DNA from: Fimbriiglobus sp.
Lineage (GTDB): Bacteria > Planctomycetota > Planctomycetia > Gemmatales > Gemmataceae
NCBI GenBank assembly: GCA_025351325.1
Contig: JANXWE010000140.1
Span: 1 to 49,576 of the forward strand
DNA: 49,576 nucleotides
Reading direction: 5' to 3'
The translations under genes and the position numbers were made by a program. Within the stretch, counting starts at the first letter, position 1, and each line of letters starts with the position of its first letter. Shown piece after piece: positions 6,693 through 45,405 of this stretch. The notes under the pieces are model-generated. The model had not been told where the DNA came from. It did not search any database and saw only the letters and a program-made list of their open reading frames with translations.

Positions 6693-7661
6693 ATGGTTCT
6701 CCGTAAACGCCCGGCCTTTACACTGATCGAACTGCTGGTGGTGATCGCCATCATCGCCATTTTGATCGGCTTGTTGCTACCTGCCGTGCAGAAAGTCCGC
6801 GACGCGGCGGCGCGGATGCAGTGCAGCAACAACCTGCACCAGATGTCGATCGCGGCCCACAGCTACCACGATGCGAACGAGGCGTTCCCGTCGGCTTGGT
6901 TGAACCCGACCCCGGCGAAGGTCTTCACGGGTGTGATTCAAGATCCCCCTCTCAACACCGCGCCGAGATTCACCAATCTGCTCGTGGAGTTGCTGCCGTA
7001 CATCGAGCAAGGCAACTTGCAAAAGAACTGGGACTTCAACGACATCAACAAGAACCGTGGGCCGGATGGAAGCCTGGCGTCGCAAGTGGTCAAGATCTTC
7101 ATTTGCCCGAGCAGTATTATCGCCGCGAACCCCAAGTCGACCGTTTCCGGTAATGTGTACGGACTCAACAGCTACGCCGGTATCGCGGGCCGCTACTCGT
7201 TCCGGGCCTTCAAGGGGAGTGCCTTCACCATCAGCAACGACGGAGTGTTTTACATCAACAGCCGCGTGAAAATGACGGGCATCACCGACGGCACGAGCAA
7301 CACCATCCTGTTCGGCGAGCGCCAGCATAAAGACCCAGCATTTGACGCCATGTATAAGAACTTCCCAATCATCGGTTGGAGCGGTTGGGCGTGGTGCGAC
7401 CAAGGAAATGCCATTGGCGACTTCCTCGTCGGCGCGGCCCAACCGATCAACTGGAACATTCCCGTGGGCAGCACCGGGGCGAACAGTTCGAGCAACCCAT
7501 GGGTGCAACAGCGCCTCAGCACCATGGGCAGCGGCCACACCGGCGGTGCTAACTGTGGCATGGCCGACGGCTCCGTTCGGTTCGTCCGCGATTCCACTCC
7601 GTTGGCCATCCTCCAAGCGCTATGCACCCGCGCCGGTGGCGAAGTGGCTTCGTTGGATTAA
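6693..7661 (+). CDS. DUF1559 domain-containing prepilin-like protein
   Basis: This 322-residue protein starts with a type II secretion or type IV pilin-like N-terminus: a short basic leader, then FTLIELLVVIAIIAILIG and LLPAVQKVRDAAARMQC. The leader would be cut before F by a prepilin peptidase and the rest used as a membrane anchor. The body carries the DUF1559 features, including SYHDANEAFPSAW, TDGTSNTILFGE and the terminal SGHTGGANCGMADGSVRF block. This family is greatly expanded in Planctomycetes, with dozens to hundreds of copies per genome, and its role is unresolved. A lipoprotein gene follows, as is usual for the family. The stop codon lies inside the first bases of an inverted-repeat element. 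Confidence 0.93.
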   Translation: MVLRKRPAFTLIELLVVIAIIAILIGLLLPAVQKVRDAAARMQCSNNLHQMSIAAHSYHDANEAFPSAWLNPTPAKVFTGVIQDPPLNTAPRFTNLLVELLPYIEQGNLQKNWDFNDINKNRGPDGSLASQVVKIFICPSSIIAANPKSTVSGNVYGLNSYAGIAGRYSFRAFKGSAFTISNDGVFYINSRVKMTGITDGTSNTILFGERQHKDPAFDAMYKNFPIIGWSGWAWCDQGNAIGDFLVGAAQPINWNIPVGSTGANSSSNPWVQQRLSTMGSGHTGGANCGMADGSVRFVRDSTPLAILQALCTRAGGEVASLD

Positions 7662-7832
7662 TACAGGAAGATTTTTGAACCGCGGAGACGCAGAGGCGCG
7701 GAGGAAGGCAAAAAATTCAACACGTAAGAGGGTGGGGCTTTTGCCTGGCCGTAAGCTCCACCCCATTCTTTTTCCTGATTGTTTCCTCCGCGTCTCTGCG
7801 TCTCCGCGGTTCAAAATCTTGTTTTGTATTAA
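7658..7832. repeat. Inverted-repeat element, empty copy
   Basis: The left arm (7658-7707) and right arm (7782-7832) are complementary over about 50 bases with a few mismatches. Each starts TTAATACA at the outer end, then GATTTTGAACC and the core CGCGGAGACGCAGAG. The 74-base centre shows no ORF. The left arm supplies the TAA stop of the DUF1559 gene, and the right arm ends ten bases before the lipoprotein start. As RNA it would fold into a very long hairpin. The same arms recur at 8963-9518. Confidence 0.75.
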
Positions 7833-8361: not shown

Positions 8362-8952
8362 ATGGCCGTCCACGTTCAAAAAGAGGCGCCCGCCTTCACC
8401 ACGCAAGCCGTTGTCCACGGCGAATTCAAAGCCGTGAGCTTGGCCGATTACAAAGGCAAGTGCGTCGTTCTGTTCTTCTACCCGCTCGACTTCACGTTCG
8501 TCTGCCCGACCGAAATCATCGCCTTCAGCGACCGGATCGACGAGTTCACCAAACGCGACACCGTCGTTTTGGGTTGCAGTACCGATAGCCGCTTTAGCCA
8601 TAAGGCCTGGATCGACACGCCACGCACCAAAGGGGGCCTTGGCGAACTGAAGTACCCGCTGCTCGAAGACTTGACCAAGTCGATTGCCACGAATTACGGC
8701 GTGCTCATCGAAGGGGTCGGCGTCGCCCTCCGCGGTCTGTTTGTCATCGACAAAACGGGCATCGTCCGGCACATCACCATCAACGATTTGCCGCTCGGCC
8801 GCAGCGTCGACGAGGTCCTGCGGTTGATCGATGCGTTGCAGCACTTCGAGAAGCACGGCGAAGTCTGCCCGGCCGACTGGAAGCCCGGCTCCTTGGCACT
8901 CAACCCGAAGAAGGCCAGCGAGTACTTTGAGAAGGCGAATGCGAAGGCTTAA
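8362..8952 (+). CDS. Typical 2-Cys peroxiredoxin (AhpC/Prx family)
   Basis: The 196-residue enzyme reduces hydrogen peroxide and organic peroxides in the cytoplasm using thiol electrons. The peroxidatic site is [14 protein letters not shown] with C48, and the resolving cysteine is in GEVCPADW (C169), as in typical dimeric 2-Cys peroxiredoxins. Length and the C-terminal helix (YFEKAN) match the family. No reductase partner (AhpF, thioredoxin reductase) is in the window, so the electron donor is unknown. It is flanked by inverted-repeat elements, suggesting it is transcribed alone. Confidence 0.94.
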
Positions 8953-8962
8953 GGGCGAATTA

Positions 8963-9518
8963 AGATTTTGAACCGCGGAGACGCAGAAGCGCGGAGGAAG
9001 GCAAAAATTGGTATTATGCCCGATCCCGATGTTACCTGTGTATTTGCGCAGTTCAAAAATCTTGACTTTCAGAATGAGTAGCAATGACTGTCATCCCGGA
9101 CGACTTGAACCGATTGGTCGAACGGGTGATTGGGGCCGCGATTGAGGTGCATCGAGCACTCGGCCCAGGGTATTTGGAAAAAACCTATGAAGAAGCCATG
9201 GCTCATGAATTTGGGCTATGCACAATCGTTTTCGCACGTCAGCACCCCGTCGCTGTTGTTTACAAAGGACATCCTTGCGGCGATGGGAAGCTCGACTTCC
9301 TCGTTGAAGACCGGCTGATCATCGAACTCAAGACCATTGATCGGTTCGGGGATATCCACACGGCCCAAGTCATGGCTTACCTCAAAGCCACGGGGCTCGA
9401 CTTGGGTTTGCTCCTGAATTTCAACGTTCCCGCAATGCGCGATGGCGTCAAACGGGTGATTCGTTCTTCCAAAAATCCCTGATCTGTTCTTACTCCGCGT
9501 CTCTGCGGTTCAAAATCT
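8963..9518. repeat. Inverted-repeat element carrying a GxxExxY gene
   Basis: The left arm (8963-9000) and the right arm (9493-9518) match the arms of the element at 7658-7832: AGATTTTGAACCGC then GAGACGC. They lie in inverted orientation around the GxxExxY gene at 9084-9482. A further partial right end (GCAGTTCAAAAATCTTG, 9047-9063) sits just before the gene, so the left part may itself be a small composite copy. The outer right end abuts the lysS stop codon. Confidence 0.65.
9084..9482 (+). CDS. GxxExxY protein
   Basis: This 132-residue protein contains the signature GYLEKTYEEAM (residues about 30-40) within the family's usual opening (RVIGAAIEVHRALGPGYLEK). It continues with VYKGHPCGDGKLDFLVEDRL, an IELK motif and the C-terminal LLNFNVPAMRDGVKRVIR. 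The central D-LVEDRLIIELK pattern resembles the PD-(D/E)xK nuclease core, and a nuclease-like fold has been suggested for the family, but activity is not established. These proteins occur in many scattered copies in Planctomycetes and cyanobacteria. Here the gene is enclosed by inverted repeats that also occur without it at 7658-7832, which hints that gene and repeat travel together. Confidence 0.88.
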   Translation: MTVIPDDLNRLVERVIGAAIEVHRALGPGYLEKTYEEAMAHEFGLCTIVFARQHPVAVVYKGHPCGDGKLDFLVEDRLIIELKTIDRFGDIHTAQVMAYLKATGLDLGLLLNFNVPAMRDGVKRVIRSSKNP

Positions 9519-9519
9519 C

Positions 9520-11052
9520 CTATTTCGTTTCTGGACGAAGCAGCGGGAACAAGATCACGTCGCGGATGGTTGTCGTGTTCGTCAGCAGCATCACCAGGCG
9601 GTCGATGCCGATGCCGAGTCCGCCGGCGGGGGGCATGCCGTGCCGAAGTGCCCTCACAAAATCGTCGTCCATTTTGGCCATGCTGTCGTCGGCGTTCATC
9701 CCCGTCAGTTGCTCGCGGAAGGTCGCTTCCTGCGTGATCGGGTCGTTCAATTCCGTGTAGGCATTCGCCAGTTCCATGCCCGCGATGTACAGTTCGAACC
9801 GTTCGGCGAGCTTGGGATTCTCACGCTTGCGTTTGGTCAGTGGGCAGAGCGCCGCCGGGTAGTCGTAGACGAACGTCGGCTGATGACTCTTCGCCAACTC
9901 CGGCTCGCACAGGTGCTCGAACAGTTCGTGGACGAGCACTTCATGCTGTTTCGGTGTACTCGTGCCGGCTTTGGTGTCGCGCAGTTCCAGGTGGATTTTG
10001 TTATCGGTCGCCGCCGTGCGAACTCCAACTTCGTCGAACAGATCGACGCCGACGGTTTGACGGAAGATGTCGGCGTAGAGCACCCGTGGCCACGGGCCGG
10101 TGAAGTCGATCTGGCATTCGCCGTAGGGCAGGATCTTCCCGAGTCCGAGCACGTCGACGCAGGCCCCGAACACGCCTTCGGTAAGCTCCATGATGCTGAA
10201 GAGATCCCCGTAGGCGCAGTACAGTTCGAGCATCGTGAATTCAGGGTTGTGGCGTGGGCTGATCCCCTCGTTGCGGAAGACGCGACCGATCTCGTAAACC
10301 TTTTCTAACCCGCCGACAAGCAACCTCTTGAGCGGAAGCTCGAGCGCGATCCGGACGAACAAATCGAGATCGAGGGCGTTGTGATGTGTGTCGAATGGTC
10401 GGGCCGCGGCGCCCCCGGCAATCGCGTGCAGCGTCGGCGTTTCGACTTCCACATACCCTTGGTCGTCGAGGTGGTTGCGGATGGTGCGGACGATCTTCAC
10501 GCGCTGTTGGATGCGTTTCAGCGTCTCCGGGGTGTAGATCATGTCGAGGTAGCGGTGCCGGAGGCGGTACTCCATGTCGCCGAGACCGAAGACATCTTTC
10601 GGGTGCGGTTCGAGCGACTTCGTGAGGAACGTCAACTGGTCGACTTGGATCGTCAGTTCGCCCACTTTGGTTTTGCCGAACTCGCCGCTCACGCCGACGA
10701 TGTCGCCGAGGTCGAGGAGGTTTAGTACCTTCCATTCGAGTTCGCTGACCTTGTTCACCCGAATCATCAGTTGGATGCGGCCGCTCTGATCCCAGAGTTC
10801 CAAGAAGTGCAATTTACCACCGGTGCGGTGCCGCACGATCCGGCCAGCCGCCGTGACGCGCTGCCCCTGCGGATTGGCGTCGTCGAACGGCAGCGGCTCG
10901 AGCAAGCGGATCTCGCCGATGGGCGTGCGGCCATCGAACCGCTGGCCCCACGGGTCGATGCCGAGCGCTTCGAGCTGACGGAGTTTGTCGAGGCGGACAC
11001 TGGCCTGATCGGTTTCGACGGCGGGCACTGGGTTCTTCGGAGCATCGGCCAC
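9520..11052 (-). CDS. lysS: Lysyl-tRNA synthetase, class II
   Basis: This 510-residue enzyme charges tRNA-Lys with lysine. The N-terminal OB-fold anticodon-binding domain covers about residues 55-170 (RVTAAGRIVRHRTGGKLHFL). The class II catalytic core follows: motif 1 near RYLDMIYTPETL, motif 2 in FRNEGISPRHNPEFTMLE and motif 3 in GLGIGIDRLVMLL close to the C-terminus. Length and order match bacterial LysS. It is transcribed leftwards, divergent from the P-II gene, and its stop touches the inverted-repeat element at 8963-9518. Confidence 0.96.
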   Translation of the reverse strand: MADAPKNPVPAVETDQASVRLDKLRQLEALGIDPWGQRFDGRTPIGEIRLLEPLPFDDANPQGQRVTAAGRIVRHRTGGKLHFLELWDQSGRIQLMIRVNKVSELEWKVLNLLDLGDIVGVSGEFGKTKVGELTIQVDQLTFLTKSLEPHPKDVFGLGDMEYRLRHRYLDMIYTPETLKRIQQRVKIVRTIRNHLDDQGYVEVETPTLHAIAGGAAARPFDTHHNALDLDLFVRIALELPLKRLLVGGLEKVYEIGRVFRNEGISPRHNPEFTMLELYCAYGDLFSIMELTEGVFGACVDVLGLGKILPYGECQIDFTGPWPRVLYADIFRQTVGVDLFDEVGVRTAATDNKIHLELRDTKAGTSTPKQHEVLVHELFEHLCEPELAKSHQPTFVYDYPAALCPLTKRKRENPKLAERFELYIAGMELANAYTELNDPITQEATFREQLTGMNADDSMAKMDDDFVRALRHGMPPAGGLGIGIDRLVMLLTNTTTIRDVILFPLLRPETK

Positions 11053-43948: not shown

Positions 43949-45405
43949 GCGAAGAATTCTTCCCAACCGATGAGCGTGGCGGTTCCAATTAAGGTCGCCA
44001 ACAGGATCGCAATCAGCCCGGCGCGGACTCGGAAGGCGAAGCGGTCGTGCCGGGCGGCCCGGTGCGGCTGCTCGAGGAGCGACAAGAGAAAATCGATCCG
44101 GTGCGACGGCGGCCCGTGCTGCCACGACTTCCACCAGGCGAAGAGCCATTGCCGGACGGAACCCGCTTGCGGGCGGTCGAGTCCGCTCAGGTGCATTACC
44201 AATTCGAGCGCCCGCGCCATAGCCCGCACCCCCGTCGGGCAGATCGCGTGACCCCCTTCGATCAATTCCGTCTCCGGCGTGTGCCCCTCGCAATTCGGAT
44301 CCGCGCACGATCCCGCCTTGGCACCGACGATATCGGCTTGGCGTTCACAGACACGCGATAAGAATCCGAACACGACGAAAATATAAACACCCAATCCGAA
44401 CACGCCGACGAGCAGGCCGTAGTCGTCGAAGTCGTCCGGCAACAGGCGGAGCGACTCGAGGTAGTTGAGGAGTGCGCCGCCGACCACGGAACTGAGGATG
44501 AGGAAGCCGAAGTAGTACGGGATGTGACCGTGCCGGGCGTGACCGATTTCGTGGCCGAGGACGGCGTCGAGTTCCGGCGGATCGAACGCCTCGAGCAGAC
44601 GATCCGTGAAGATCACGAACCGAGCCTGCGGCAGCACGCCGATGATCATGGCGTTGGCGATGAGGCCCCGCGTCGGCCAGAGCAACCAATCGGAATAGCG
44701 GAAGCGCATCCGTGTCGCCGTCGCCGACAGTTGTTCGCGGATCGGCCCATTGGGCATGCGTTTCAACCCGAGGATCGGCTTCACAAACAACGGCAGCAAC
44801 AACAACAGCGCGAAGGCCCAACAGAACGAGGCCACTTGATACGGGGTCGAGTGAGCCAGCTCCGGGTCGTGCCGGGAGATCGTCTGCTGCGTGGCGATCA
44901 ACAGCACGGGCAAGAACAGCAGCAGCACGAATTGCCGGGCCTGATGCAGCACATACGCCGGCAGGCTCCAGAACGGTTGGGTCGATGTCCCGGCGGCTTG
45001 CAAGGCCCGCTCGGCAAAAAACCAGACGATCCAATTCGCCAGCAGCATCAGCAAGTACGGCCCCGGTACCAGCAACTCGGCGAACGGGGCCAGGACGCCT
45101 TCCGCGTCGGACGCGAGTTCCCGCACCGCCCAGCCCCAACCGGACAGCACGAGGGCCACCGTCCCCCACAGTTGAACCAGCGCGAACCGCTTCCGAAGCC
45201 GGAAGTACAAGCTCGCGGCAGCCCCCCGATCCTTCGGAATCTCGCGGAGGACGCGGAGGCAACCCCCGATCGAAAGCAGCACCGACCCGAGCACGAAGGC
45301 CCCGGCGATCGCCACGATGGTACTGGCGTCGAGGGACTCGAACGGTCGTGGCCACGGCACCGGTAAACAGGCCGCAGTCAGCAAGAGAATCATCAAGATC
45401 GGCAT
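43939..45405 (-). CDS. Integral membrane M48-family metallopeptidase
   Basis: The 488-residue protein has multiple transmembrane helices in its first 220 residues and around 300-350. The zinc-binding HEIGHARHGHIP lies near residue 284, and FLSRVCERQADIVGAKA gives the third ligand in the E-R-x-A-D pattern. This matches CAAX-protease-like/Ste24 and HtpX-type peptidases that cut membrane proteins at the cytoplasmic face. A cysteine-containing loop after the third ligand (GSCADPNCEGH) is unusual. The C-terminus has another hydrophobic segment (LIAILLATLIGTATLIGW). The physiological substrate is unknown. Confidence 0.88.
   Translation of the reverse strand: MPILMILLLTAACLPVPWPRPFESLDASTIVAIAGAFVLGSVLLSIGGCLRVLREIPKDRGAAASLYFRLRKRFALVQLWGTVALVLSGWGWAVRELASDAEGVLAPFAELLVPGPYLLMLLANWIVWFFAERALQAAGTSTQPFWSLPAYVLHQARQFVLLLFLPVLLIATQQTISRHDPELAHSTPYQVASFCWAFALLLLLPLFVKPILGLKRMPNGPIREQLSATATRMRFRYSDWLLWPTRGLIANAMIIGVLPQARFVIFTDRLLEAFDPPELDAVLGHEIGHARHGHIPYYFGFLILSSVVGGALLNYLESLRLLPDDFDDYGLLVGVFGLGVYIFVVFGFLSRVCERQADIVGAKAGSCADPNCEGHTPETELIEGGHAICPTGVRAMARALELVMHLSGLDRPQAGSVRQWLFAWWKSWQHGPPSHRIDFLLSLLEQPHRAARHDRFAFRVRAGLIAILLATLIGTATLIGWEEFFAQL

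Follow-up and report, generated by a model that had tools for sequence, protein, structure and literature searches.

Dispersed intergenic palindromes, many of them gene-free, are known from the RAYT/REP system, in which a single enzyme gene has related flanking inverted repeats (PMC3733652). Intervening sequences (IVSs) that encode S23 proteins are about 430 nt long, have terminal inverted repeats and one small open reading frame (ORF), and are suspected to be mobile (PMC4990558).

GxxExxY is a common protein annotation for which we know of no role. In the open full-text literature, two papers were found to name the family, and no description of an association between GxxExxY genes and repeats was found; searches of that literature by repeat sequence gave unrelated papers only. 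Here we describe a GxxExxY gene enclosed by inverted arms in Fimbriiglobus sp. The window, i.e., the whole stretch of DNA analyzed, comprises 49,576 nt of contig JANXWE010000140.1 (GCA_025351325.1), and its genome is labeled G000 in the genome comparisons.

GxxExxY units share with REP/BIME sequences and their RAYT genes (REPtrons), and with TIRtrons, the combination of scattered gene-free palindromes and one enzyme gene within arms. However, RAYT is an HUH tyrosine transposase, whereas GxxExxY belongs to the RecB-like PD-(D/E)XK type, and REPs are 20 to 40 bp long, whereas GxxExxY arms consist of tandem octamers. The REPtron GTAG/CGTC tag is absent from the window hairpin and from other G000 hairpins read, whose feet read TTTTGAACC or TTTAACC. 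The locus is therefore not a REPtron, as the enclosed gene encodes a PD-(D/E)XK protein and not an HUH tyrosine transposase; by analogy, the cassette design would be like that of RAYT/REP and the enzyme unrelated. S23 IVSs resemble the GxxExxY unit in size, terminal inverted repeats, and possession of one small ORF, but they lie within 23S rRNA genes and encode a four-helix-bundle protein that is not a nuclease, whereas the GxxExxY unit is intergenic. The location between peroxiredoxin (Prx) and lysS genes and the GxxExxY identity of the ORF place the unit outside the 23S rRNA IVSs, and the Fimbriiglobus window contains no rRNA match.

As with MITEs (short, multicopy, gene-free inverted-repeat elements whose ends are shared with a gene-bearing form), about a dozen G000 hairpins share their ends with the element at 8956 to 9527. 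Unlike MITEs and their parent insertion sequences (ISs), GxxExxY units have no known transposase. No target site duplication was found, with element ends that are not sharply defined. The window element is not itself an IS, as only the 132-amino-acid GxxExxY ORF lies between its arms. Finally, the nucleases of the RecB, Cas4, and lambda exonuclease group have in common with GxxExxY the fold and the residues E, D, E-x-K, and Q-x3-Y, but GxxExxY stands alone, as a 132-amino-acid protein within inverted repeats, and neither cas genes nor recombination partner genes were recognized beside the GxxExxY loci inspected.

Results

Two loci in the window carry the arms: the GxxExxY element itself (8956 to 9527) and a gene-free hairpin. 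Their features and neighbors are as follows.

7658-7706, + strand: left arm of the gene-free hairpin; overlaps the DUF1559 stop codon
7707-7782, unstranded: interior of the gene-free hairpin; its inner stem, GGGTGGGGCTT/AAGCTCCACCC, is conserved in further G000 hairpins and in the Prx-lysS hairpin of G002
7783-7832, - strand: right arm of the gene-free hairpin; pairs with 7658-7706
8362-8952, + strand: peroxiredoxin (Prx), left neighbor; served to locate the orthologous site
8956-8999, + strand: left arm of the GxxExxY element, CGAATTAAGATTTTGAACCGCGGAGACGCAGAAGCGCGGAGGAA; ACC, then tandem C-R-C-R-R-A-G octamers reading geneward
9035-9063, unstranded: degenerate right-arm copy inside the GxxExxY element; 79% complementary to 7668-7696
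9084-9482, + strand: GxxExxY gene; 132 amino acids, predicted RecB/Cas4-like PD-(D/E)XK protein
9493-9527, - strand: right arm of the GxxExxY element, repeating the left arm in reverse complement; overlaps the lysS stop codon
9520-11052, - strand: lysS, right neighbor; name taken from the preliminary description

The GxxExxY gene sits between the convergent Prx (+) and lysS (-) genes. The inverted arms of both copies are 32 to 49 bp long, and the two left arms are identical at 41 of 42 nt (98%; 7673 to 7714 versus 8966 to 9007). Inverted-repeat (IR) scores are 41 for the arms of the gene copy (paired over 8956 to 8987 and 9494 to 9527) and 67 for those of the gene-free hairpin. No inverted repeat found in the window scan was stronger than this hairpin, and only one other, the gene copy, had separated arms. 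As single-stranded DNA, the hairpin is predicted to fold strongly (z of -4.7 and -6.1 for two overlapping stretches). The outer ends of the two copies overlap stop codons, of DUF1559 at 7659 to 7661 and of lysS at 9520 to 9522, as the preliminary description had it. That description saw "74 bases of nothing" between the hairpin arms; the locus is indeed gene-free with matching arms, but the interior measures 76 nt and holds a second stem.

Exact and near-exact searches of G000 found about a dozen hairpins of paired arms, most of which enclose no gene; those compared are 77 to 90% alike, interior included in several. The hairpin at 7658 is thus not the single empty twin that it had been taken for. 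Derivation of the 7658 copy by deletion from the gene copy (at 8963 in the preliminary description) is not supported, as the inner stem is common to other hairpins and absent from the gene copy. The degenerate piece at 9035 to 9063 suggests that the gene copy may consist of a hairpin-sized unit (8962 to 9063) plus the gene and an extra right arm; further right arms also follow hairpins at C278 and C61 of the same genome. A lone arm-like tandem, CGCGGAGGACGCGGAG, with no partner close by, occurs at 45243 to 45258.

Besides the window gene, G000 has two further GxxExxY genes; one (L009) is enclosed by an inverted repeat of another type, ACACGGAT, and the other is a fragment at a contig end. The window arms (CGCGGAG) match the local hairpins; the nearest relatives of the window protein (59 to 61% identity) have CGCCAAG-type arms.

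The GxxExxY protein. The window ORF matches TIGR04256 with 130.9 bits (curated cutoff, 35) and PF13366 (PDDEXK_3) with 130.5 bits (cutoff, 22; E value, 5e-38). Across an alignment of 60 members, residues E32, D71, E81-x-K83, and Q95-x3-Y99 (window numbering) do not vary. The predicted structure (pLDDT, 95.9) has Cas4 SSO0001 as the closest solved fold (Z, 9.7; root mean square deviation, 3.4 over 102 residues), with lambda exonuclease, LHK-Exo, and MGME1 among the other matches; Hjc is also resembled (Z, 6.9). A search of the PDB by sequence gave no match, and searches with PADLOC and PHROGs gave no significant match. Where dS was measurable, dN/dS was 0.07 to 0.29, indicating purifying selection. 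Both the motifs (E, D, E-x-K, and Q-x3-Y) and the superfamily fold that define the RecB-type PD-(D/E)XK proteins are present, and GxxExxY is, on sequence and model, a predicted RecB/Cas4-like PD-(D/E)XK nuclease with its site intact.

Enclosure of GxxExxY genes across genomes and phyla. GxxExxY genes were present in 124 of 198 sampled genomes of the class and absent from 74. A gene was counted as enclosed where the flanking inverted repeat had an IR score of ≥30. A reversed-sequence regular expression was too loose a control for tandem repeats, and shifted positions and a second gene family were used instead. Flanks reached this score at 82 of 97 GxxExxY loci, compared to none of 27 peroxiredoxin flanks and 1 of 192 positions shifted within those loci. 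When a wider set was scored outward from the ORF ends, 83 of 111 loci were enclosed, and in Acidobacteriota the count was 24/26, versus 2/52 for shifted controls. The same arms occur on plasmid records of Bacteroides and Bernardetia; the records of Gemmatirosa, Persicobacter, Sphingomonas, and Treponema scored below the threshold. The Gemmatirosa kalamazoonensis plasmid record (L219) has a CGCGGAT-type hairpin just 3' of the GxxExxY gene, at about 2400 to 2480.

The arms share a grammar, ACC followed by tandem C-R-C-R-R-A-G/T, reading inward. In the ORF-end set, the strand polarity of C-R-C-R-R-A was inward at 64 loci, reversed at 7, and tied or absent at 12. A genome may contain up to 175 arm motifs, compared to about 20 of the reversed pattern in all 198 genomes together. 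The median motif count was 5 in the 124 genomes with GxxExxY and 0 in the 74 without (P = 1.8e-10), and the excess persisted in within-family tests (f1, P = 0.005; f3, P = 7e-5). Four genomes (G075, G106, G123, and G090) have 42 to 68 motif matches and no detected GxxExxY gene. Arms and gene thus form one unit that is conserved across phyla; its gene-free relatives, the arm-arm hairpins, greatly outnumber it.

Arm type and protein subfamily. Protein identity correlated with arm similarity between families (r = 0.30) and within genomes (r = 0.73), and none of 2,000 permutations gave values as high. Across phyla, r was 0.43, against a null of 0.05 (standard deviation [SD], 0.05; again 0/2,000 permutations), and for 74 of 98 proteins, the arm type agreed with that of the nearest homologue in another phylum (shuffled mean, 59; SD, 5). 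Within one genome, GxxExxY proteins that are <45% identical have dissimilar arms (mean sharing, 0.037), while sharing is higher (mean, 0.154) for proteins that are ≥55% identical and come from different families. The arm variant therefore follows the protein subfamily, not the host, across genera and phyla. Linkage alone could be the source of this coupling or of part of it, and some sampled loci (e.g., in genus g89) are orthologous and so not independent events.

Dispersal, presence, and absence. Genome G151 has three copies on two contigs that are 88 to 92% identical from arm to arm, over about 555 bp. Their flanks are largely unrelated, but two copies share a further upstream stretch; sharing extends up to about 90 bp past the arms, and the ends of the element are therefore not exactly defined. 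The hom-apgM junction is filled in G135, G179, G195, and G091, holds a decayed element in G154, and is empty in several genomes, including G210 of the same genus, with 12 bp between the genes. At the adjoining apgM-lysC junction, another subfamily with other arms is found in G135, G179, G195, and G100, and in G139 a remnant retains both arms but has lost the gene except for its C-terminal end. In genus g89 (L253 to L262), both junctions of hom-apgM-lysC hold GxxExxY elements, of two subfamilies with different arms. Many g89 loci are orthologous, and it is possible that loss as well as gain has occurred.

The window's own site was located in G002, of the same genus, by the Prx search, which yielded this one informative orthologous site; it holds a hairpin and no gene. 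The right arm of this hairpin (L043) is broken by another inverted-repeat element (TTAGGAGTTACGCAC...GCGTAACTCC).

In G313, three distinct deletions lie inside the GxxExxY gene, with both arms retained; they are a route to gene-free forms and not a movement of the element itself. An IS with the end CTAGGGTGTGTTCGTAATC carries the GxxExxY element beyond its transposase region in many copies in this genome (L348 and L350 to L363). The 28 matches in G313 were considered as recent GxxExxY transposition; those fetched proved to be mostly copies of this IS and were therefore not counted toward the element's own mobility. No target site duplication was seen at the filled and empty junctions or at the G151 copies, where the ends are not sharply defined.

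The unit is thus dispersed within a genome and is present, reduced to a remnant, or absent at orthologous junctions. The proposal of a unit that travels with GxxExxY and has the arms as its ends agrees with the enclosure counts and the dispersed copies, and the comparison of sites in relatives that had been suggested found orthologous junctions filled, internally deleted, or empty. The accompanying idea that the empty copy is a deletion derivative is not supported for the 7658 hairpin; internal deletion as a source of gene-free copies is supported by G139 and G313.

Other cargo within the arms. A search for convergent arm pairs irrespective of GxxExxY in G198 and G195 found pairs 320 to 980 bp apart that enclose unrelated ORFs (L365, L366, L368, L369, L370, and L371), namely, two for proteins of membrane type, one for an R2K ATP-grasp protein, and three whose products match no Pfam family; no clear ORF lay within one pair. 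The arms are therefore not exclusive to GxxExxY and behave as if they delimit cassettes with variable cargo. In a small tally (G000, G061, G100, G195, and G198), GxxExxY occupied 5 of 11 gene-bearing arm pairs, and the remaining six ORFs look unlike one another.

In the same class, four-helix-bundle (S23-like; TIGR02436) genes also lie in inverted tandem arms (L167 to L196; 23 of 28 with an IR score of ≥30). The grammar of these arms is a heptamer, [TC]AG-N4, unlike that of GxxExxY arms.

Discussion

The reading that we prefer, with a probability of roughly 0.6, is that the element at 8956 to 9527 is a compact mobile cassette whose GxxExxY protein acts on its own arms and that the hairpins are its gene-free relatives. 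The nuclease would recognize its own arm type, through either the tandem repeats or the hairpin that they can form, and cut there; repair or replication would then place copies of the arm-to-arm segment at new sites, mostly between genes. Gene-free hairpins left by internal deletions could still be mobilized in trans, and other ORFs could be carried between arms in the same way. We infer that GxxExxY, by cutting its own arms, drives the spread. Weighing against this reading are the unrelated ORFs within arms in G195 and G198, the hairpin-rich genomes with no detected GxxExxY, the chance that linkage alone underlies the coupling of arm and protein, the orthology of some loci, the imprecise ends of the G151 copies, the failure to find a target site duplication, and the window arms, which match the local hairpins and differ in type from those of the nearest protein relatives.

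GxxExxY might instead be a passenger, the commonest of several cargos, retained because it helps the cassette or host, while a trans-acting transposase or recombinase recognizes the arms. The other single ORFs in the arm pairs of G195 and G198, including the R2K ATP-grasp and membrane-type proteins, would fit such an arrangement, as would the existence of hairpin-rich genomes without GxxExxY and the element that rides inside an IS in G313, and the small cargo tally (5/11) keeps it alive. We nevertheless regard it as unlikely: one family recurs in the tally where the other six ORFs differ from each other, no second enzyme turned up repeatedly between arms, nearly all sampled GxxExxY genes have arms, and arm type tracks the GxxExxY subfamily across phyla. 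The linkage of gene and arms into one unit that has an arm type of its own weighs against a resolvase-like nuclease that processes hairpins or cruciforms and stabilizes or exploits palindromic arms, with the gene settling in palindromes like a homing gene and the hairpins spreading or persisting otherwise, e.g., through transcription termination. The strong single-strand fold, the intergenic position of hairpins, often just past stop codons, and the likeness of the model to Hjc speak for such a role; however, a Z of 6.9 is in the range of common arrangements, and the tandem-repeat grammar and inward polarity exceed what a generic hairpin needs, making this account improbable.

An RNA-level element is less probable still. 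Here the arms would pair in the transcript and RNase III would remove the insert, leaving neighboring genes undisturbed and the protein incidental. The anatomy fits that of the Coxiella IVS (428 nt, a single small ORF, and a terminal inverted repeat of about 28 bp; PMC4990558), and inverted tandem-repeat arms likewise flank S23-like genes of these genomes, but the arm grammars of the two protein families differ, GxxExxY has an intact site of the DNA nuclease type, and nothing seen connects the unit with rRNA. The pattern can hardly be explained by inverted repeats that arose by chance or by repeated counting of orthologous loci: orthology is real for some sampled loci, as in g89, but the shifted and gene-family controls (1/192 for same-size shifted positions), the cross-phylum coupling, and the dispersed copies all argue against it.

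Extending the cassette reading, we tentatively propose, at somewhat worse than even odds, that these mobile elements make up a new superfamily with representatives in at least three phyla and that the nuclease moving them, a stand-alone protein of the RecB/Cas4-like type, reads their inverted tandem-repeat arms. Gene-free hairpins and cassettes that carry genes would be nonautonomous members of the superfamily, and the S23 (four-helix-bundle) genes would form a parallel class with its own heptamer arm code. The recurrence of GxxExxY with its arms in several phyla suggests a small mobile element of a kind not described before.

An arm code that covaries with the protein gives the GxxExxY family a testable function and would explain a large class of the palindromes scattered through genomes of Planctomycetota and Acidobacteriota. 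It also provides a natural collection of small nucleases, each with its likely DNA target. Should the nuclease indeed move the arms, an enzyme class would be added to those that move DNA.
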